DNA of 34,399 nt from Microcaldota archaeon (lineage in GTDB: Archaea > Micrarchaeota > Micrarchaeia > Anstonellales > J096): contig JAUQPY010000002.1 in NCBI GenBank assembly GCA_030550115.1, positions 1 to 34,399 on the forward strand. The letters are read 5' to 3'. A program made the position numbers and the translations under genes. Of this stretch, positions 621-34,396 are shown piece by piece. The notes under the pieces are model-generated. The model did no database searches and was not told the origin of the DNA. It saw only the letters and a list, made by a program, of their open reading frames with translations. The stretch's first letter is position 1, and every line of letters starts with the position of its first letter.

Positions 621-1406
621 ATGCACAGAACTATAAATTATATATTTCTAGGAGTTATATTATCTATACTATTAATATACGGCTTGGATGCGAATAAAAA
701 ACCTGTAAGAGATCCTGATATAATCTGTCCAGCAGTCTACCAACCAGTTTGCGGAGAGGATGGAAATACATATTCAAACAGCTGTGAAGCCTATGCCCAT
801 GGTGTTAAAGTATTATATAAAGGAGAGTGCGGGGATAGAGATCCTGAGAATTCCACTCCTCCTTCTATGCTAAATAATCTTCCTTCTATGCTAAATAACT
901 TAGCTCTAGCAGTCTATTTAAAGGATAATATTGTTGTAGAACTGGATGTATTAAACCTTAGAAAACAGGAATGTATATACGGTAATATTGCAGATAAGGT
1001 GAATATAATACAATTGCATAGGGAAATTAGAGTTTTAGAGTTAAAGGATAGTGCATGTTATATATATCCAACTATGGAAGTAGTTGATTGTAATAGTTGT
1101 AGTGGTGAATTGGGTATTATGAAGATATTGAAACATGTGGAGATATATAAAGATACCCCTATGGCACAGAAACAGACTGTAAATCAAAAACAGATTACAG
1201 ATGATGACATAGATATGAATTATATAAAGAACAGAGCTAAAGAGATAGCCGCAGAGAACAAAGCTAAGATAAAAAGAGTAGAGATAGACGAGGAAGGAAA
1301 TGCCTACGTGGTTGTAGATAGACCTATGAAGTTGATATTCATAGAACTTCCAATTAAAGAGGAAGTTAGAGTGGTGATAAAAAAGAAATCTTACCCATAT
1401 AACTAA
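621..1406 (+). CDS. Secreted/membrane-anchored protein with an N-terminal hydrophobic segment and a Kazal-like domain
   Basis: N-term INYIFLGVILSILLIYG followed by CPAVYQPVCGEDGNTYSNSCEAYAHGVKVLYKGEC (Kazal signature, four Cys); then a duplicated PSMLNNL and a lysine-rich C-terminus. Confidence 0.75.
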   Translation: MHRTINYIFLGVILSILLIYGLDANKKPVRDPDIICPAVYQPVCGEDGNTYSNSCEAYAHGVKVLYKGECGDRDPENSTPPSMLNNLPSMLNNLALAVYLKDNIVVELDVLNLRKQECIYGNIADKVNIIQLHREIRVLELKDSACYIYPTMEVVDCNSCSGELGIMKILKHVEIYKDTPMAQKQTVNQKQITDDDIDMNYIKNRAKEIAAENKAKIKRVEIDEEGNAYVVVDRPMKLIFIELPIKEEVRVVIKKKSYPYN

Positions 1407-23000: not shown

Positions 23001-24185
23001 CTATTTAATCAATTCTGCTATAAGAGTTTTTGTTTCTCCTGGTCCCAGTTCAACTCTGGCAAACAGTGTATTGTTGTTAATTCCCAAATCTCCTTGGGCA
23101 GTATAGTTTCCATCTAGCCATATAGATATCTCCACATTCTCTCTGTAAGGATTCAGATTCTTAAGGGATATTTCTATATTCGATCTGATGATCTCTCTGT
23201 TACAATACATATACTGATCGCACTTTCTATTCAGTAAATTTCTGTATAAAATATTATACTCTATACCCCTATTCTCCCAAATATATAGATCAACGCTACT
23301 ATCTTTTGGATAATAATCTATATCAACAACATTCAATAATCTTCCATATTCATCATAGATCTCTATGGTTCCAGATGGGATATCTGTTGGGGCTCTGAAG
23401 TTAATATACAGAGATGGATTTCCCTTCTGTGAGTATACCTCCTGATTATATAGATATCCAAATATTCTATTCACTCTATCTTCCTTCAAATTTTTAGATT
23501 CTACAGTTCTGGATATAGTAGACATAGCAGGTACAACCAAATCTTTTATGGTATATACAATTCTACTCATAGTTATCTGCTTATCCAATTCACTAGCTTC
23601 TTTCAATTGAAAAGACTGATATTTGTATAGAATTGGGGAGTATCTCCTCAGATTCGCATCCACCAATTCGACCTGATCATATCTAAATTCTCTCTTGTTA
23701 TTATTGATAATTTTAAAACCGATATCTAAAGAGGAGTTAAGAGGATCAAGTCTAAGAATAGAACTACCTTCCCATTTGAGTCTATCGATATTTACATATA
23801 CATAACCTATAGGATCAAGTAGGGTAGATGTAAGATTAGTGTCTTGAGCTACTAATGAATTTGGATCCAATCTATAGTAATATCCTTCAGGATCTTTAAC
23901 TATTACTGTATACTCATCAATCCCAACCACAGTACCTTGAATTTCTCTGTTGTTCCATATGAACTTCACCCTGGTTCCCAGATAGTTATTCATTTTCAAA
24001 AGATCATACCTACCATAGATATTCAAAACACTCAATCCATCTAGATCAATTCTATTATCAATTTTCATCAGAGCAGAATCTCTGTATATATACAGCTGGG
24101 TTGGATGTGTGGATATATTCAAGGCTGTAAGTAATAAGATTAGCAAGCCCAATATAATAGCGCCTATTGCAAAGTATCTATACAT
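23001..24185 (-). CDS. Membrane-anchored/extracytoplasmic beta-rich protein (394 aa)
   Basis: N-term TM YFAIGAIILGLLILLLTALNI, then beta-rich sequence ending VELGPGETKTLIAELIK. Confidence 0.75.
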   Translation of the reverse strand: MYRYFAIGAIILGLLILLLTALNISTHPTQLYIYRDSALMKIDNRIDLDGLSVLNIYGRYDLLKMNNYLGTRVKFIWNNREIQGTVVGIDEYTVIVKDPEGYYYRLDPNSLVAQDTNLTSTLLDPIGYVYVNIDRLKWEGSSILRLDPLNSSLDIGFKIINNNKREFRYDQVELVDANLRRYSPILYKYQSFQLKEASELDKQITMSRIVYTIKDLVVPAMSTISRTVESKNLKEDRVNRIFGYLYNQEVYSQKGNPSLYINFRAPTDIPSGTIEIYDEYGRLLNVVDIDYYPKDSSVDLYIWENRGIEYNILYRNLLNRKCDQYMYCNREIIRSNIEISLKNLNPYRENVEISIWLDGNYTAQGDLGINNNTLFARVELGPGETKTLIAELIK

Positions 24186-24208: not shown

Positions 24209-25039
24209 TTAAAAGATTAGTGTTCCATCTAATGTTTTTTTAGTATGTGGAGGTAGAATAATATCTCTGAACAGTACTCCATCCTTATATTCCATCTCCC
24301 CTTCATAATCAACTACACGATAGGTATTCAATTCTAATATTATTCTAAGTTCCTGACTGATATCAGAAGTGTTTTCCAAATAAACCTGAATATTCATTAT
24401 ATTATCATTCATAGATGATTTAGTGTGTGCTTTTATTATCGGATTTTGATAGATTTTAAGATAGGTTGTAGTATCCATTGGAACACTGTCTGTTGTGGTT
24501 ATAGCAATATTCTTCTCTAACAGCCCCATAATAGTTACATTACCTCTGGGGATTGATACTTTAGGTGTAAAAACCAGAGTTTTGTAGCACAAAAGCTCAG
24601 AGCTATTTATACTATCATGGATTACATTCATCAATTCTGCCTCATATATATCCTCTCCTATTGTGAATGATCCTATACTGTTCTGCCGTAGACTTGTATT
24701 ATAGAGTTCATAGATAGAATATGTCTGATCGTAACTCTCTAGATCAATATCATTCAATCTGAAATCTGAATTATTAAAATCTATTGCCATGTGATTAAAT
24801 ATTTTTGCCCCATAATTCAATAGAATCTCCTCACCTTGATATATTATGAAATGATCCCCACTCCAATACATATCTCTGGTTAGGAAGAGCACTGGACTTA
24901 TCTTAGGGTCGACAGTTATAGTATTGTCATTCAACTCAACAAGATATCTCCCAATCAGTGAATTATAATCTATTCTATTCGGTAATTCCTTTTTGGAATC
25001 AATAGGAATATATGCCCCGTCCCTGAATACTATGTTCAT
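24209..25039 (-). CDS. Beta-rich hypothetical protein (276 aa), possible relative of the neighbouring 394-aa protein
   Basis: C-terminal region NIQVYLENTSDISQELRIILELN...FRDIILPPHTKKTLDGTLIF parallels NIEISLKNLNPYRENVEISIWLDGN...FARVELGPGETKTLIAELIK; TGA/ATG overlap with the upstream gene. Confidence 0.7.
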   Translation of the reverse strand: MNIVFRDGAYIPIDSKKELPNRIDYNSLIGRYLVELNDNTITVDPKISPVLFLTRDMYWSGDHFIIYQGEEILLNYGAKIFNHMAIDFNNSDFRLNDIDLESYDQTYSIYELYNTSLRQNSIGSFTIGEDIYEAELMNVIHDSINSSELLCYKTLVFTPKVSIPRGNVTIMGLLEKNIAITTTDSVPMDTTTYLKIYQNPIIKAHTKSSMNDNIMNIQVYLENTSDISQELRIILELNTYRVVDYEGEMEYKDGVLFRDIILPPHTKKTLDGTLIF

Positions 25040-25464
25040 TCTCTCACCCTACCATATATACGTCCATACAGTACAAATTCACTGTTTACAGGAGTATTTG
25101 GAACAATAGGTTCATAATAGATCTCTAATCGCTCTGCGTAGTTCCTATTGATTGGAATACTGACAGGAATGTTGATGGTAAAATTTTTGCCTCTATCTAA
25201 TCGGATGTTGAAGTTGTGTTCAGTATTATTCAACTTCAATCTTCTAATGATAATATCGTAATCAAAATTATTTCTCAAATTTATTATAATGTTAGACGAA
25301 TTTATAAACATGTCCTCGCATCTCAGAAAATAAGGAGTTACACACCTATCTGGAAGTGCAAAAGAACCCGAATAGTATGATATGAGTATAGCTACAAGGA
25401 ATAGTGTTATTATGATTGCTATAGAATTAGTATACAGGAACTCTAAAGATATTTGAGCTCGCAT
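25036..25464 (-). CDS. Type IV pilin-like protein with archaeal class III signal peptide
   Basis: MRAQISLEFLYTNSIAIIITLFLVAILISYYSGSF: QISLEF-type class III signal peptide motif followed by a hydrophobic helix. Confidence 0.75.
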   Translation of the reverse strand: MRAQISLEFLYTNSIAIIITLFLVAILISYYSGSFALPDRCVTPYFLRCEDMFINSSNIIINLRNNFDYDIIIRRLKLNNTEHNFNIRLDRGKNFTINIPVSIPINRNYAERLEIYYEPIVPNTPVNSEFVLYGRIYGRVRE

Positions 25465-25493: not shown

Positions 25494-28400
25494 TTATCCT
25501 CCTCTAGAAGAACCACTCAATCTTATTCTATTAACCTCTTTTATTCTCTGTCTAAATAATTGTCTATTTCTATTATTTATTATTATATCTCTACCAGTTG
25601 CTGGAGTAAACATCATCTCTGCCTTTATGATCCCCACCAGTACCTGCTCAGATTCACTCTGACCATCCCCCTCAATTCTTCTATATCTATCAATTCCTCT
25701 GTATTTAGCGGATTGCTCTATAAACTTAGTGGTGGCTGTAGGTACCGATTCAGGAGTTAATGAATAACCTGTAGCTGCTATGATCTGATTTCTGTACTGT
25801 GCATTCTCTGAAATCACATTCCAAGGGGTAATTGATCTTTGGCTCTCCCCTATCATATCTCCTGCTAGAGCTCTGAATTCTGTGGGCGGTAGCAGAGGTT
25901 GAAACATATATGCCAAGGATTTTCTGGTAAGATTGAGCGCTCCTGATATAGATGAATAAGGCAATATATATTCCTCTATTAGAGCTTTAATCGGTGCTGT
26001 GGATGGGGAGGTTGGGATAGTCTTTAGTAATAGTGTAATTGGTGAGACAACGTATAACATAGGGAACATCATGAATGGAAGACTGTAAGAAGGTAGTTCT
26101 GTAGAATAATATGTACGCTCTTCATAATATCCAAAATACCTACTCCATCTTCGTTGATTCATGTTATATCTATCTGTAAACACGTCTTTATTCAGCAAGA
26201 TTCTTTCATTCAGGGTATTCATCACTATATTACCAGAACTCTGATCTATGTGGCCGTAACCTGGTAGATCATAATATGTACCTACAAAAGGAGATAACCA
26301 ATGGTGGAACATGTGAGAAGGTCTATATGTTAATAGTTTCTCTTCCCAATCAGATATCAAAAGACCTTCTGTAGCTCTTATCTTTGAAGCTCTGTAATCC
26401 AACCAATTCTGGAGATTCGGGATAATGTGTGGACCAAAAATCCTCTCTAGATTGTCTACTATATACCCAAAAGGCAATCCAAGAGTTCCCATTCCAATGA
26501 TAGTTGCATAGAATGATATTGGATACCAGTGAGAGTACATATTAGGAGAGAATGGTAAAGGCAGATATGCCCAAACATGTGCATATGGTAGATCGCTTAC
26601 TGGATATCTATTAAACTGTTTTGCTGATGTGAATTTGCTTATAGGAGAAAAGTTTGGATCATTTAGCATCTGAGATAGTCTATTTATATAACTGGTTGAT
26701 AGTTGAGGTGTATCTATTGTAGATGTTGTGGAGAAGGATTTGTTCAATCCTCTGTAAAGTCTAGAGAAGTATTGTAATCTAGAGAACATCGATATCATAT
26801 AATTGTGGGCAATAACATCTCTTACAAAAGCAGGGGTCAGAGGCTGTAAAAATGACTTTGCAACTAGGTGAAGAGGGAATCCTAAAACCATATTTAATCT
26901 ACCCATCCAATCCAATCCTGAATAATTCGGTGTTTGATCCAGAAGGAAAAGTCTAACTATGTTTGGTATATCATCGTAACCAGATCTGTTTGCAAAATAG
27001 TTAGCAACATGCAATCTCTGGATATTATTCATTCTTATTAGATCTGCAAGGGTAGGATCGTATTGAGGGAGTAAGTTTGTATATACTCCTTCTGTTAATC
27101 TCTTGGATCTTATCCCTCCATCATTTGCTAGAATAGAAGGTTGATCTAGGACTCTATACATTATGGCTATGTAGTAAGGCCAGAACAATCCACTTCCAGC
27201 GTAGAATGTAGCAGATATATCTGCTCCTCTGTACTCACTGATACCTGCCCACACTCCTTTAGGAGATCGCACAACCAATGCCCAAGCATTCATGTAGTAT
27301 CCTCGTTTATAGCTCAAATATGCTGTTTCAAATTCATTCAGCTCTTCAAATGCCTCGATTATAGCCTCTTCTAAATATGCCCTTCTAGCTGTATGTTCTG
27401 GATTATCTGGATCAAGAGCTCTATACTGATCCATAAACTCTATAATATTTTCCACTAATGCTCTCTCAGCTAGCTCAAACATTCTATTCACTATAGGGTA
27501 CCCATGCTGTATCATTGCTGCTGCATGACCAAAGTGCTCAACATGAACGAAATACATGTTTGCATACTCTGTAGCTGCTAGAGTTTTATTTATGAGAACT
27601 AGTGCGGTAAGATCCTTCCATGTGGCAATTAATCTATCTCTAAGATTAAAACCTATCTCACCTCTAGGTACTAACCCCTCCCACAATCTATTATTCATAC
27701 TATTTACAATCTCACGTATTCTATGACCTACATTTGGACCAGTATCTAATACCATTCCCCTTTGAATCAGATTTCTTACAGAATAATTATCTAGATTCAT
27801 TGCTCCTATCAATCCTGTAATACCCAGAACTCTCTTATCGTTAGAAACAGAATCTATTATAGCCAAAGCATCCAAATAAATAGGGATATGATTAGATATC
27901 TGATTCATCTTATTGTTCATGAACATCTGTTCTATCAATCTATAATTCTTAACATAGATGCTCACCTCTGACTCTCTAATACTGTTGATGTTGGGGAATT
28001 GCTGTGTTAGATATTGAATAACTCCGATTCTAGTATTGAATTCATCAAGCATTACATAGGCCATAAACCTGATATGAGGATTGGAATGTGATTGAGAAAT
28101 ATGCTGAAGAGCAGGTAAGATCTGTGCCAATTCGTTTATATTCTCATTCAATCTATGATATATCCTCTTTTCAGCTAAGCTGTTATTTAGTAATGATTCA
28201 AGTTGAGATCTGCTAATTTTAACACCATTATTGTTCAAATACTGATGTATAGAATCTAAAATCCCATTTCTGTATTCAGCACTTTTCTTGTACATAACTA
28301 ATCTGACGAAATCGTACATAGCTGTATGTAGAGCTAGCATCATATCTGATTTACTCATTTTTGGAGATAGGCTAAGTCCAGCATAGAACGCATTCAATGC

Positions 28401-31400
28401 CAATATTGGATCTCCAACGTATTGTACAGATAGATCAACAAAATCTTTGGATAGCCAGAATGCTGTAGCTCTCATCTTACCTATATATCTACTACCATAA
28501 TCACCAGGATCCTGATCCAAATGCACAAATCTACCATCTATTGCATCAACTATATGCACAGACGATCCAGCTGGTGCCTCAAATGATGATGATGGAATTT
28601 TGGATACTGCCTGTTGCATCTTCTCTACAGTCCCATCTAGCTGCTCATCTGTTAATCTAGATCTTCCAATTCCTCTGAATAGGGATCTATTGATGGCTCT
28701 GGTTCTACTCATCTGCCCAAAGCTCTTAGGTCTGAGCACCAATTCATCATCAGCAATAATAGTGTCTATATCATTAAATACCTCTGGCAACCATACAGTA
28801 TGTCCTCCCATACCATATATCCTCTGTTTTGAGAATACTCTTGTATTAGGATCAATATCCACGACTCTACTCCTTTCATGTCCAAACAACAACCTATTTA
28901 CAACACCAACATTCAAATCTCCTGGATCCACATTGTTCTTAACAGTCTGATAATTAGTATCTGGACCAGGTTTCCTCTGAATTACAGCATTATGTAAATT
29001 CAGATAACCAGCAGCAACCATGAAAGCTCCTAGAGTGTGTGCCAGATGACGCTTTGAATATATACTATTCTGCATTAGATGAGATGTCTGTAACAATTGT
29101 TTCTCTAACTCCTGCTGGAACCATTCTGCTTTGGTACCCTCGGGACTGTTCTGATATACTCCTTTGTTGGCTGCTAAATACCTAATAGCCTCTCCTACTC
29201 TTTCTGCAGCCATCATGTTATTCTTCTTAACAGCATATATTATAGGTATCTCTTTGATTTTTAGACCAGCCATTCTTTCATTTCTTCGTAATGAACTAAC
29301 TATTCCTGCTTCTGTAGCCATTTCTCTATTGAATTCTGCAATAGATTTAGCTGCTTCTATTAATTCTTTCCTATTTGCTATATACCAGATATCCTGGGTT
29401 TGATATATCTCTGATTTAATACTGTCCATACCCATGGCGAATAGCAATTCCTTGTAATCCCCAGATAGATATGTTAGATTAGAAGTACTATGGAATATAT
29501 CTGATGCTCTCTCCGGATCGCTCAGAGCTCTGAAAAGTTCTGTATCACTCATTTGATTAATCGGAGAGAAGAAATCATGTGAACTGAGCCTTCTGATAGT
29601 TTCAGTAAATAGCCTCTGTCTCTCATAATTATCCTCCACACCTAATCTCACTGCTGCTCTACTAGCCTCAGTAGCTTGATTATTATTCCAAATATTCTGT
29701 ACAAACTCTGATCTAATCGTGGAATTTGATCTAACCAAATGGGTAAGTTGAAATTCATCAGTAGAATTCTTCATATCCATCCAATTCCATGTAGAATTCA
29801 GATCATAATTTGCACGAATTCTAATCTGAATAGCCTCTATTACCCCATTAATTATTGATTCTGCCAATCCACGATTCCTCAATTCATCTCTAATATTCTC
29901 TACGTTCCTGGATCTCACATAATTATCTATCAATCCAACAATCTCTTTCTCACTCAGATGCTCGTTCAGCATACTATACAATTCATTCATTACAACTACA
30001 TCACTTATTATTCTTGAGGACTCAGCTATAAGTGTATCTGCATTCTGGTTTAGGTTAGTACTCAGATAGTTTCTGATATAAGAACCAACTTCTGTGTTTA
30101 CTATGCCTCCATCCCATCGTATAACTGCTTCTCGTATAGAATCTGAATTCACATTATCTAATATTGCATCAATCACAGTTCTTCTAACAGCATCATCAAT
30201 TATTTCTTCTCTAATACCTTCCTGTCTAGCTATAGCTACTGATTCAGAGATATCCCCGGTATACAACATTCTTAGATAGTGATGATTCTCCACAGTAACA
30301 TTCTCCTTACCTAGAATCTTTAACATAGTTATATCAAAACCTTCTCTAACTCCAGGCATGTATTCATAAGATATTTGCCCACTAGATCCCAATTCTGATT
30401 TAATAACCGAAGATCTATACATCTCTAGCATATTTGCTACTATCAGAGCTATCAAACCATCACCAGCATCGTTAAATATTGCTACTGATTGTTCTTGCTG
30501 ACTACCTATGGGTTTATAGATTGATGCGAATTGTAAATTGTTCAAATCCTCCGATAGGGCCAAGTATTCCCCTATCATAGCAGAATCAATCTTATCTATA
30601 AATTCAGGTCTCAGGAGATCTATATTAGCTAATCTCTCCTCACCATTACTCATCTTAACTCTGGTAAAGAACTCCTCCAATTTCTCTATTCCCTGAATTA
30701 TATTTTCTGATGAATCAACATATCTCCTCAACAGATCTTTGTATCTCTCAAAAATAGCTCTCTCAACAGGATCATTTATTACATATATTGAATAATCTTT
30801 CTCTCTCATAGCAATGATCTCCAACTTCTGTATGGCATATAACTCCTGGAGTAATCTACCCAATTCTTGATCTTCCTTTAGGCTATCTAATCTAGAACTT
30901 ATCTGTCGTATTGTATTTATATCTAAATGCAAATCTGTGTTCTCAATTAACTTTCGGATATCATTAACAAGATCCGGATATCTCTTGGATAGATAGTTAA
31001 TAAGAATTATTGTTGAGAGATTCCTACTTGCAGTCTGCAAAGATACGACGAAGGCTTCTGCTACATTATTTGGAGTGACTTTTATTAGCTCCTTATGAAC
31101 AGCAGGAGTATGATAGTATCGAACAGTTCTGTAGAAAGAGGTTCTCACGCTTGCAGCTGGCCCCACAACCAATCCAGCAACTATGGGGAATACCATTGCA
31201 TCATACATCCAATTAGGAATTACTCTTGCAATATTGTTTATCATGTTAGTTGTACTTTCTGAAAACTCTATCCCAAAAGCACCTGATATTGCAGAGGCTA
31301 CATTCTTATCGGCAAGCTTTTTTATAGATTCATCGGCCTCTTTGATTCTCTCTTCTACTCTTTCTACAATCTCCTCATCTCTAATCTGTCTTAGAGGATC

Positions 31401-32699
31401 TCTAGTGTATTTAATTAGCTTGAATGGGTAGACAAATGATAGGGCAAAAGAGATCATTCCTCTCGATGCTCTGAATGGATAGAATATATATGACATCACT
31501 GGAACGTTGACCATATGAGCAACACCCTTAAGAATTGGGTATCTGCTTAGCTTATCCTTCCATACCTGAACGAACTCTGCAAGCTTATCTAAAGGTTCTT
31601 CTCTAGTCTTCTTCACTACAGCAGCAGCTATCAACTGACCCACAGCAAAATTAACATAATATGTAATTGTCTGAGCATATCTAGGAGCTAATCCATTTGC
31701 TTCTAGTTCTTTGACAAATTCCTTGTAGCTCTGCTCAAACTTGAATCTTGTGGTAGTATCAGTAAGACGTTCTATTAATTCGAAATTACCCAAATATGGC
31801 TGAATGTTTCGATTGTAGGCATTCAGAAATGCCTGAAATATATGTTCCTGATTGGGTTTGACGTAATAAACTCCATTATCATTCATTCTAGTAACTAGAC
31901 CCAATTGCTGTGCCAACATCAGCTGAACTGCATTCAAATTCCAAGATCCACTCCCAGTTATACTTCTCACTTCTATATTGGTAGCTATCAGAGCCTCGGC
32001 ACTATCGCTTTTACTAATATCTCCTATTGCTGGAGCATAATTAATACTACCTGGCTTGTGGGAGAATACAACTTTAGGTGTTGGTAATCTAGGATATAAT
32101 AGATCAAAAATACCTGCAAACATTCCCATTCCTCTAGCATACATAGCAGCACCAAATATTCCTAAGAATAATATCATCATGATTATAGAATCAACTCCAG
32201 CTCTATCAATCCTGTCCTTTATCAATTCCCCTAGGTTCACTCCCAAAGGTGTAGTATAGGACATCACTTCAAGCTGACCTTTAGAATTCTTGAATACCGC
32301 TATTCTGATTCGATCAGTAGTGACAAAATCTATATCACCCCCTTTAATAGTATATTCAATTATATAATTTCCTTCATTTATATTCAATGGACATCTGTGA
32401 TTGGGTTGTAGATCTTTACATACAATTCTTTCAGAAACCCCACCAGCTCTCTGAAAATGGACTATTTTAACAACAGCTCTTGCATTCTTATCATAAATTC
32501 TTGCTATCTGGTCAACATTGATCACGATTATCCTACCAGGATCGACTTTATCATGTTGAGGAACTTCAGCATAAACATCATATTCGAAATATATATTGGA
32601 ACCATCTGAAGAGATAGTTGTAGGAGAGAGAATTCTAGTTAGTGTTGAAGTATCAGATGAATAGGATAGGAGTATGATAAGAACTAAAACATATTTCAT
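25494..32699 (-). CDS. Giant membrane-associated protein (2401 aa), N-terminal signal and beta domain, hydrophobic segments, long helical body
   Basis: Uninterrupted 7.2-kb ORF; signal-like MKYVLVLIILLSYSSDT; hydrophobic SIIMMILFLGIFGAAMYARGMGMFAGIF, PNWMYDAMVFPIVAGLVVGPAASV, YPISFYATIIGMGTLGLPFGYIV, SLPFMMFPMLYVVSPITLLLKTI. No family recognised. Confidence 0.85.
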   Translation of the reverse strand: MKYVLVLIILLSYSSDTSTLTRILSPTTISSDGSNIYFEYDVYAEVPQHDKVDPGRIIVINVDQIARIYDKNARAVVKIVHFQRAGGVSERIVCKDLQPNHRCPLNINEGNYIIEYTIKGGDIDFVTTDRIRIAVFKNSKGQLEVMSYTTPLGVNLGELIKDRIDRAGVDSIIMMILFLGIFGAAMYARGMGMFAGIFDLLYPRLPTPKVVFSHKPGSINYAPAIGDISKSDSAEALIATNIEVRSITGSGSWNLNAVQLMLAQQLGLVTRMNDNGVYYVKPNQEHIFQAFLNAYNRNIQPYLGNFELIERLTDTTTRFKFEQSYKEFVKELEANGLAPRYAQTITYYVNFAVGQLIAAAVVKKTREEPLDKLAEFVQVWKDKLSRYPILKGVAHMVNVPVMSYIFYPFRASRGMISFALSFVYPFKLIKYTRDPLRQIRDEEIVERVEERIKEADESIKKLADKNVASAISGAFGIEFSESTTNMINNIARVIPNWMYDAMVFPIVAGLVVGPAASVRTSFYRTVRYYHTPAVHKELIKVTPNNVAEAFVVSLQTASRNLSTIILINYLSKRYPDLVNDIRKLIENTDLHLDINTIRQISSRLDSLKEDQELGRLLQELYAIQKLEIIAMREKDYSIYVINDPVERAIFERYKDLLRRYVDSSENIIQGIEKLEEFFTRVKMSNGEERLANIDLLRPEFIDKIDSAMIGEYLALSEDLNNLQFASIYKPIGSQQEQSVAIFNDAGDGLIALIVANMLEMYRSSVIKSELGSSGQISYEYMPGVREGFDITMLKILGKENVTVENHHYLRMLYTGDISESVAIARQEGIREEIIDDAVRRTVIDAILDNVNSDSIREAVIRWDGGIVNTEVGSYIRNYLSTNLNQNADTLIAESSRIISDVVVMNELYSMLNEHLSEKEIVGLIDNYVRSRNVENIRDELRNRGLAESIINGVIEAIQIRIRANYDLNSTWNWMDMKNSTDEFQLTHLVRSNSTIRSEFVQNIWNNNQATEASRAAVRLGVEDNYERQRLFTETIRRLSSHDFFSPINQMSDTELFRALSDPERASDIFHSTSNLTYLSGDYKELLFAMGMDSIKSEIYQTQDIWYIANRKELIEAAKSIAEFNREMATEAGIVSSLRRNERMAGLKIKEIPIIYAVKKNNMMAAERVGEAIRYLAANKGVYQNSPEGTKAEWFQQELEKQLLQTSHLMQNSIYSKRHLAHTLGAFMVAAGYLNLHNAVIQRKPGPDTNYQTVKNNVDPGDLNVGVVNRLLFGHERSRVVDIDPNTRVFSKQRIYGMGGHTVWLPEVFNDIDTIIADDELVLRPKSFGQMSRTRAINRSLFRGIGRSRLTDEQLDGTVEKMQQAVSKIPSSSFEAPAGSSVHIVDAIDGRFVHLDQDPGDYGSRYIGKMRATAFWLSKDFVDLSVQYVGDPILALNAFYAGLSLSPKMSKSDMMLALHTAMYDFVRLVMYKKSAEYRNGILDSIHQYLNNNGVKISRSQLESLLNNSLAEKRIYHRLNENINELAQILPALQHISQSHSNPHIRFMAYVMLDEFNTRIGVIQYLTQQFPNINSIRESEVSIYVKNYRLIEQMFMNNKMNQISNHIPIYLDALAIIDSVSNDKRVLGITGLIGAMNLDNYSVRNLIQRGMVLDTGPNVGHRIREIVNSMNNRLWEGLVPRGEIGFNLRDRLIATWKDLTALVLINKTLAATEYANMYFVHVEHFGHAAAMIQHGYPIVNRMFELAERALVENIIEFMDQYRALDPDNPEHTARRAYLEEAIIEAFEELNEFETAYLSYKRGYYMNAWALVVRSPKGVWAGISEYRGADISATFYAGSGLFWPYYIAIMYRVLDQPSILANDGGIRSKRLTEGVYTNLLPQYDPTLADLIRMNNIQRLHVANYFANRSGYDDIPNIVRLFLLDQTPNYSGLDWMGRLNMVLGFPLHLVAKSFLQPLTPAFVRDVIAHNYMISMFSRLQYFSRLYRGLNKSFSTTSTIDTPQLSTSYINRLSQMLNDPNFSPISKFTSAKQFNRYPVSDLPYAHVWAYLPLPFSPNMYSHWYPISFYATIIGMGTLGLPFGYIVDNLERIFGPHIIPNLQNWLDYRASKIRATEGLLISDWEEKLLTYRPSHMFHHWLSPFVGTYYDLPGYGHIDQSSGNIVMNTLNERILLNKDVFTDRYNMNQRRWSRYFGYYEERTYYSTELPSYSLPFMMFPMLYVVSPITLLLKTIPTSPSTAPIKALIEEYILPYSSISGALNLTRKSLAYMFQPLLPPTEFRALAGDMIGESQRSITPWNVISENAQYRNQIIAATGYSLTPESVPTATTKFIEQSAKYRGIDRYRRIEGDGQSESEQVLVGIIKAEMMFTPATGRDIIINNRNRQLFRQRIKEVNRIRLSGSSRGG

Positions 32700-33280: not shown

Positions 33281-34396
33281 ATGCAAGTGCAATTAGAAGA
33301 AGGAGAAAAGATAATAGATATGAAAACAACTGAACCAACAATACCATCAGAGTTAGGAAATCAGTCGGTAGGCGGCAATAACTCTTTTTCAATAGGCAAC
33401 TCACTGCGGTCTGTCACAGGATATTCAACAAATGATAATAATTTCTCCATAGCTAATAGCATAGATCCATCATTAGGTGATCCATCTCTCTTCCCTTCTG
33501 GTAAATCATATAGAAACTTTTTTGGGGGGCACCATCAACTACCATGGGAAGACCAAAATAATAATTTCTCTATAGCTGGCTTTTATTATAATAATCACTC
33601 CGTAGCTGGCGTAGATTTATCATTGGAAGATTCATCGCCCTCATCCCCATCTACAAATTTATCAAATATTAGATTTGAAAGTATTAGATTTGCTATACAA
33701 CAATTGGCAGAGGAGATAAAAGAATTGTTAGAGGCTTGGTACAGACGAGCAGAGGAACAAGATGCAAAAAATAGTATGTGGGGGCAGGAAGAGAGTGATA
33801 GAAACAGAACTATGCAATTAGCTGAAAGAATACATCGATTAAAAGAGATATTATATGGATTTGATGCTTCTCCAAGTCTAAATAGATATGTAACACTTCA
33901 GCATGTTCTAGGAACTTTAGCTGAACAGGATCCAGAGGCTTATGGAAAATTGGCAGAGAGTTTGAACAATCTATTCAGAGAAATTCAAGAGAATGAAGAA
34001 TTTAGAGCTTGGGTAGTTGGTCAATTATTCGTGTTGGGTTTTGCAACAGCTAAAACAGGTGATGATTGGAATAATGTTAGCGGAGCAGCACAAGTATTAG
34101 GTTTAGAACCATCTCATGTGTATGAAGATATCTTTGGACAATCTCCAATCGAATCATTACCATTATCTGAGCAGGCAACAACACCGGAATTAACCGGACA
34201 AGGGGAGCAATCCTTCCAAGATTCTAATGTTAGTGTTGCTGAAACAGCTAATAAAATAGATATTAACAACTTACAAGAGCGATATAGGAGCGATCCTTAT
34301 GTGGCACACATGCTGGATGCATTTGCAGCTCTAATGATTGCTAAAGGCAAATTAGATCTTCCTCCAGAGAGTGGTAGACCTCTTTCTCTTGGCTAA
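33281..34396 (+). CDS. Hypothetical protein with low-complexity N/S-rich N-terminus carrying NNFSIA-type repeats and a helical C-terminus (371 aa)
   Basis: Leaderless-type promoter; repeats NNSFSIGNSL, NNFSIANSI, NNNFSIAGF, NHSVAGV; no recognised family. Confidence 0.75.
   Translation: MQVQLEEGEKIIDMKTTEPTIPSELGNQSVGGNNSFSIGNSLRSVTGYSTNDNNFSIANSIDPSLGDPSLFPSGKSYRNFFGGHHQLPWEDQNNNFSIAGFYYNNHSVAGVDLSLEDSSPSSPSTNLSNIRFESIRFAIQQLAEEIKELLEAWYRRAEEQDAKNSMWGQEESDRNRTMQLAERIHRLKEILYGFDASPSLNRYVTLQHVLGTLAEQDPEAYGKLAESLNNLFREIQENEEFRAWVVGQLFVLGFATAKTGDDWNNVSGAAQVLGLEPSHVYEDIFGQSPIESLPLSEQATTPELTGQGEQSFQDSNVSVAETANKIDINNLQERYRSDPYVAHMLDAFAALMIAKGKLDLPPESGRPLSLG

Follow-up and report, generated by a model that had tools for sequence, protein, structure and literature searches.

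Giant open reading frame and its family

The window, which is the whole stretch of 34,399 nucleotides analysed here, is one contig of a Micrarchaeota genome with 575,622 bases at 84% completeness, in agreement with the reduced genome assumed in a preliminary description of this DNA. It contains a single open frame of 2401 codons on the minus strand (25494..32699). Stop-free runs in 50 shuffles of the window reached a maximum of 171 codons versus 2401 in this frame, which is real and far longer than expected by chance. The encoded protein of 2401 aa, predicted to be bitopic and hereafter called the giant, is conserved at the protein level within its genus (G002 and G003, 42-62% identity; G001 and G004, 23-27%), which upholds the uninterrupted 7.2-kb frame reported earlier. 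Each of the other four genus members (G001-G004) has a homologue, in some cases broken at a contig end, and others occur in the family.

Searches against Pfam and NCBIfam returned no family match to the giant, only sub-threshold noise, as fits the unknown family proposed before, and homology to VirB proteins was not detected above the cut-offs of the two libraries. A scan of genome contigs with the single giant protein as query gave zero relatives, and the C-terminal alignment search retrieved two records of the same genus named as Candidatus Micrarchaeota (L067, L068). Profile A6, built from the N-terminal region of 31 giant sequences, matched in 105 of 394 archaea, comprising 103 of the 108 genomes G000-G107 (families f1-f19) and two weak cases in f20; it matched in 0 of about 92 archaea outside Micrarchaeota. 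Many of these genomes are incomplete and in pieces. Judged by these profile matches, the giant family is restricted to Micrarchaeota among the genomes searched. The search of DPANN relatives that had been proposed thus recovered giants of equal architecture throughout the phylum, and the strong selection that had been assumed is supported. Most A6-matching ORFs are 1,000-2,300 aa long. The shortest complete giants have about 950-1,080 aa (L060, L061, L062), so the window giant is a large version. The giant of G034 (L052:6797-12763) falls into two neighbouring same-strand ORFs, one of 1026 and one of 950 aa, for which a real split or a frameshift is possible.

Domain architecture and predicted topology

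All segments of the giant are given on the minus strand, and its TM helices were assigned from hydropathy alone. The protein starts with a hydrophobic segment, the predicted signal peptide (residues 1-20; 32640..32699), which is also present in aligned homologues; hydropathy places the hydrophobic N-terminus at residues 3-21. Next comes a domain predicted to lie outside the cytoplasm (residues 21-164; 32208..32639), delimited by alignment and topology signals, that carries Cys94 and Cys103. These are the only two cysteines of the protein, with none across 2,200 aa of body, and both columns are at least 90% conserved among 31 giants. Alignment and profiles define the next segment (residues 168-208; 32076..32198), a single strong TM helix (residues 168-190, KD 2.06) with the motif ARGxGxxxxxFDLLYPRLPTP. 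The long body (residues 209-1774; 27378..32075) lacks cysteine, is helix-favouring in composition and is predicted to be cytosolic from composition and topology signals. A conserved C-terminal domain, recognized by alignment, follows (residues 1775-2220, with SDWEEK and WLSPFVGTYYDLPGYGHID; 26040..27377). Further hydrophobic stretches occur at residues 344, 500, 2063 and 2207. The signal, the hydrophobic segments, the long helical body and the membrane association of the preliminary description all reappear here, the last in the form of a signal peptide and one strong TM helix. Its N-terminal beta domain was recovered as a domain of only about 145 aa, whose beta nature is suggested by the sequence pattern.

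The same plan is common to the giants: a signal peptide, a two-Cys ectodomain of about 145 aa, one TM helix with the motif, a huge body and a conserved C-terminal domain. Phylum-wide, conservation is strongest in the TM helix with the (F)D(L/I)xxPRLPxP motif. The C-terminal domain of the window giant is shared with G001 and G004 (E~1e-23) and weakly with G005, and profile comparison did not connect this domain, as found in the genus, to the C-terminal domains of other families. Many giants end in a Cys4 zinc ribbon (e.g. L011, L014-L016, L047, L051, L054-L056, L058, L059, L063, L080), which is missing in the window giant, G002 and G003.

In the 30 residues on each side of the TM helix, lysine plus arginine average 1.9 before and 4.6 after the helix, with the higher count after it in 28 of 34 giants. 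Cysteine density is 24 per 1000 residues in the ectodomains versus 2.5 in the bodies, a ten-fold enrichment ahead of the TM helix. The charge bias and the cysteine distribution, both of them statistical signals, point to an ectodomain outside the cell and a body in the cytosol, and the giant is therefore probably not a surface adhesin. The surface attachment suggested earlier is disfavoured accordingly: only the ectodomain of about 145 aa is predicted to lie outside, with lysine and arginine concentrated after the TM helix, cysteine before it, and zinc ribbons in homologues.

Gene neighbourhood in the genus

A gene for a 142-aa protein (25036..25464, minus strand) lies directly downstream of the giant in five of five genomes of the genus. 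Its class III or type IV prepilin-type signal (RAQISLEFLY) was recognized by eye, the Pfam class III signal model giving 10.1 bits at a cut-off of 23.7. It overlaps by 4 bases with the gene of a 276-aa protein (24209..25039, minus strand) that is conserved beside the giant in G002 and G003, and a 394-aa membrane-anchored protein (23001..24185, minus strand), conserved in G001-G003, is the product of the final gene in the likely operon of the giant. Two further proteins thus follow the pilin-like gene in both G002 and G003.

Several other genes of the region are recorded here as observations. The 261-aa product of 621-1406 (plus strand) looks secreted and has a domain of the Kazal-type protease inhibitors (PF00050; 32.9 bits at a cut-off of 21), unexpected in a tiny archaeon; the protein is conserved in G002 (L012:10117-10740). 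Near the giant, the product of 33281-34396 (plus strand) carries NNFSI(G/A)NS-like motif repeats in its N-terminal third, and a similar repeat protein occupies the equal position in G003 (L004:1-256). Three small proteins with the HExxH-like motifs HELAHH, HELAHF and HESGHA adjoin the giant operon of G001 (L011:1-2968).

Six-protein membrane arrays and lipoproteins

In families f5 and f11 the giants adjoin arrays of six polytopic proteins and a lipoprotein. The six array groups, A to F, are all homologous (cross-group E 1e-16 to 1e-29) and stand in the fixed order A-F; in relatives each protein has 5-9 TM helices. A lipoprotein of 490-980 aa follows the giant in many of the families examined. 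It contains an SLT domain above cut-off in L048, L052 and L055 (24.2 bits, cut-off 21.3) and an M23 domain in L064 (55.7 bits), and neither domain scored above cut-off in the remaining lipoproteins scanned. A second homologous module of six TM proteins, lipoprotein and giant was found in G013, G017 and G005 (L117-L119, L122), its lipoprotein (L119) showing homology to that of the first module (E 2.9e-23). G005 belongs to the window's own family, and its second giant copy adjoins an array (L122). The co-conserved neighbourhood anticipated for the giant was accordingly found in relatives, as a recurrent linkage to arrays and lipoproteins.

Profile A5, which represents the array TM family, matched in 265 of 302 Micrarchaeota versus 2 of about 92 other archaea, both weakly (1.4e-8 and 6e-4). 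The window's genome gave 12 A5 matches in 10 proteins, such match counts per genome overcounting proteins that give two stretches. It contains one complete six-protein array split across contigs C5 and C1, and contig C22 ends with four proteins of a second array. In L069, L070, L074 and L075 the genes immediately past the six-protein array encode SecF and/or SecD.

Array proteins matched VirB6 neither in Pfam nor among PDB sequences. An AlphaFold model of an array protein (pLDDT 79) gave nothing significant in a Foldseek search of the PDB (best E 0.44; R388 VirB6 at E 3.2), and hhalign comparisons were weak both with a VirB6-like pair from conjugative elements (probability 4.7%) and with the giant. 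The array proteins may be VirB6/CedA-like by topology, position and context alone.

VirB4/CedB-like ATPase operon

Families f20 and f21 (G123, G246, G258) have one array, and after it come genes for two proteins that combine TM helices with a VirB4-NTD-type domain. A VirB4-like ATPase of about 505 aa after the array and NTD-like genes is clear in G246 and G258 (L149, L150; L148 is the locus of G123). A second small locus (L151, L152) comprises a T4SS_pilin-like protein, one array paralogue, an NTD-like protein and the ATPase; the pilin-like gene of this locus in relatives (L152:8521-8883) matches T4SS_pilin at 1.1e-5 and 25.8 bits versus a cut-off of 26.6, and the pilin-like genes also match TrbC. 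The window's genome has the equal operon order on contig C21 (L145), with genes for an NTD-like protein, the ATPase and proteins of 135, 233 and 786 aa.

The ATPase of the window's genome (L145:8620-10176) matches PF19044 at 43.7 bits, over the cut-off. NCBIfam scores were compared because PF19044, with matches in 7 of 14 control genomes, cannot by itself tell HerA from VirB4. The ATPase scores best with CedB (2e-26), followed by VirB4 CD1110 (2.8e-25), TraC (1.7e-14) and HerA (9e-13), all under the strict NCBIfam cut-offs (CedB 92.8 bits versus 700), and its alignment spans most of the domain of VirB4 structure 4ag5. By these model scores the enzyme is predicted to be of the VirB4/CedB type, ahead of HerA.

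The 2-TM NTD-like partner (L145:10179-11003) gave no sequence match to VirB3 or VirB4 domains, and hhalign of its family with VirB4 of a conjugative element was weak. The fold comparison was prompted by the expectation of a VirB4 N-terminal domain. Every one of the top seven PDB folds for the AF2 model (pLDDT 76) belongs to the inner-membrane complex of the R388 T4SS (VirB4/TrwK entries), with a best E of 1.6e-3 and probabilities of 0.89-1.00 against R388 VirB4, yet a TM-score of only 0.29. On the modelled fold, the partner would supply the VirB3/VirB4 N-terminal domain of a type IV secretion system (T4SS). Apparent conjugative elements with VirB4, polytopic and pilin-like genes occur in two Micrarchaeota (L154:6150-11754 and L155:4720-11047); they are distinct from the core ATPase, and the VirB4 of L154 has a PrgI-like N-terminus.

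Proposed function and alternatives

Judging from its gene company, the giant may belong to a hitherto unrecognised machine related to bacterial type IV secretion and conjugation systems and built around six sister membrane proteins. We assign a probability of roughly 0.6 to the reading that the giant is a cytosol-facing bitopic subunit of a divergent, chromosomally fixed T4SS-like machine of Micrarchaeota. This reading is preferred because giants are linked to arrays (f5, f11 and the second copy in f1), arrays are linked to the VirB4-like operon (f20, f21), and all three are present in the window's genome. Of the roles suggested earlier, secretion fits best, by way of this gene linkage to a T4SS-like module, and host interaction is still an inference. 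Several findings count against it: within the genus of the window, giants lie apart from arrays and ATPase; the linkage of giants to arrays and that of arrays to the ATPase come from different families, f20 and f21 having array and ATPase without a recognisable giant; array proteins match VirB6 in neither sequence nor fold; and HerA-like ATPases occur in most archaea.

In such a machine the small ectodomain of the giant would face outwards and meet the partner lipoprotein with its wall-hydrolase-type domains. Six different homologous polytopic proteins would form the membrane complex on which the TM helix and its DxxxPRLP motif dock, and the huge cytosolic body could act as a scaffold or substrate-gathering chamber beside the VirB4/CedB-like ATPase. 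Giant, array and ATPase would then be physically associated. The cargo may be DNA, protein or metabolites, moved to or from the host.

Alternatively, the giant could be the scaffold of an unrelated envelope machine with six-protein arrays, for instance one of SecDF protein export or lipid traffic, the f20/f21 ATPase operon being a separate system adjacent by chance. The SecF and SecD genes beside several arrays and the lack of detectable VirB6 homology are consistent with this, whereas the array, VirB4-NTD-like and ATPase genes of f20 and f21 stand in one run, the second locus repeats the set of pilin-like protein, array paralogue, NTD-like protein and ATPase, and the fold of the NTD-like protein matches R388 VirB4; we regard this explanation as unlikely. 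It is improbable that the giant works on its own at the cell surface to attach to the host, in the manner of the SPEARE giants, with neighbours of little importance. Its signal peptide, its size, the symbiotic lineage, the prepilin-like gene next door and the giant surface proteins known in another DPANN phylum (PMC10266531) would agree with such a role, but Pfam finds no adhesion domain, the ectodomain has only about 145 aa, the positive-inside bias, the Cys-free body and the zinc ribbons of homologues put the bulk of the protein inside, and giants are recurrently linked to membrane arrays. Membership of the giant in a filament system of the type IV pilus kind, which would assemble the class III signal protein encoded beside it, is very improbable despite the constant position of the RAQISLEFLY-type gene in the genus: in the other families examined no pilin-like gene was observed next to the giants, and a protein with one TM helix and its bulk in the cytosol is unlike a pilus platform protein or ATPase.

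Returning to the T4SS-like machine, cryo-tomography of a Micrarchaeota co-culture has revealed host-derived nanotubes and, in the symbiont envelope, a 21-nm barrel of unassigned identity (PMC11329633). It is a rather doubtful extension that the duplicated module (six paralogues, giant, lipoprotein and a shared VirB4/CedB-like ATPase) is a Micrarchaeota apparatus of host contact and exchange, with the giant as main cytosolic scaffold, and that a related machine could be the barrel of the Microcaldus ARM-1 envelope (PMC11329633). It has long been asked how DPANN archaea and their hosts exchange material, and the proposed machine supplies named, testable candidate genes. Conserved in most of the phylum and with links to type IV secretion, it would occupy an appreciable part of genomes that can be as small as 0.5 Mb.

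Comparison with known systems

A description of the Micrarchaeota giant and array machine was not found among the open-licence papers retrieved. The nearest counterparts are compared below from portions of the cited sources. The Rickettsiales vir/rvh T4SS has tandem virB6 paralogues and a giant extended VirB6-4 (PMC7648143, PMC2653234). It resembles the Micrarchaeota loci in the succession of virB3, virB4 and tandem paralogous polytopic proteins in one operon, and in the combination of giant size and tandem-paralogue plan in a reduced, host-dependent lineage. It differs in that Micrarchaeota have six paralogues per array, usually in two arrays, with no detectable VirB6 sequence homology, and their giant is a separate one-TM protein, unlike the extended VirB6.

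The Ced/Ted DNA import system of Sulfolobales and Thermoproteales includes CedB, the best curated match of the Micrarchaeota ATPase, and likewise combines a polytopic CedA-like protein, a small pilin and a VirB4-like ATPase; CedA, however, is one protein, and a six-paralogue array, a giant and a hydrolase lipoprotein are not described in the parts of the source compared (PMC9905601). The T4SS of Patescibacteria is similarly near phylum-wide and chromosomal in tiny epibionts and has T4SS_pilin and VirB3-VirB4 genes, but it is of the bacterial MPF-FATA type, and the portion of its account compared describes neither a giant nor a six-paralogue array (PMC12102498). The SPEARE giants of Nanohaloarchaeota are also giant DPANN membrane proteins linked to a VirB4/TraG-type ATPase; they contain Ig repeats and a VirB4 domain of their own (PMC10266531), and neither Ig-like repeats nor a VirB4/TraG ATPase domain was found in the giants of the window, L011, L015 or L016. 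A bitopic giant encoded separately from six paralogues is a combination that sets the Micrarchaeota loci apart from the Ced/Ted, Patescibacteria, Rickettsiales and nanohaloarchaeal systems as described in these portions of the sources.
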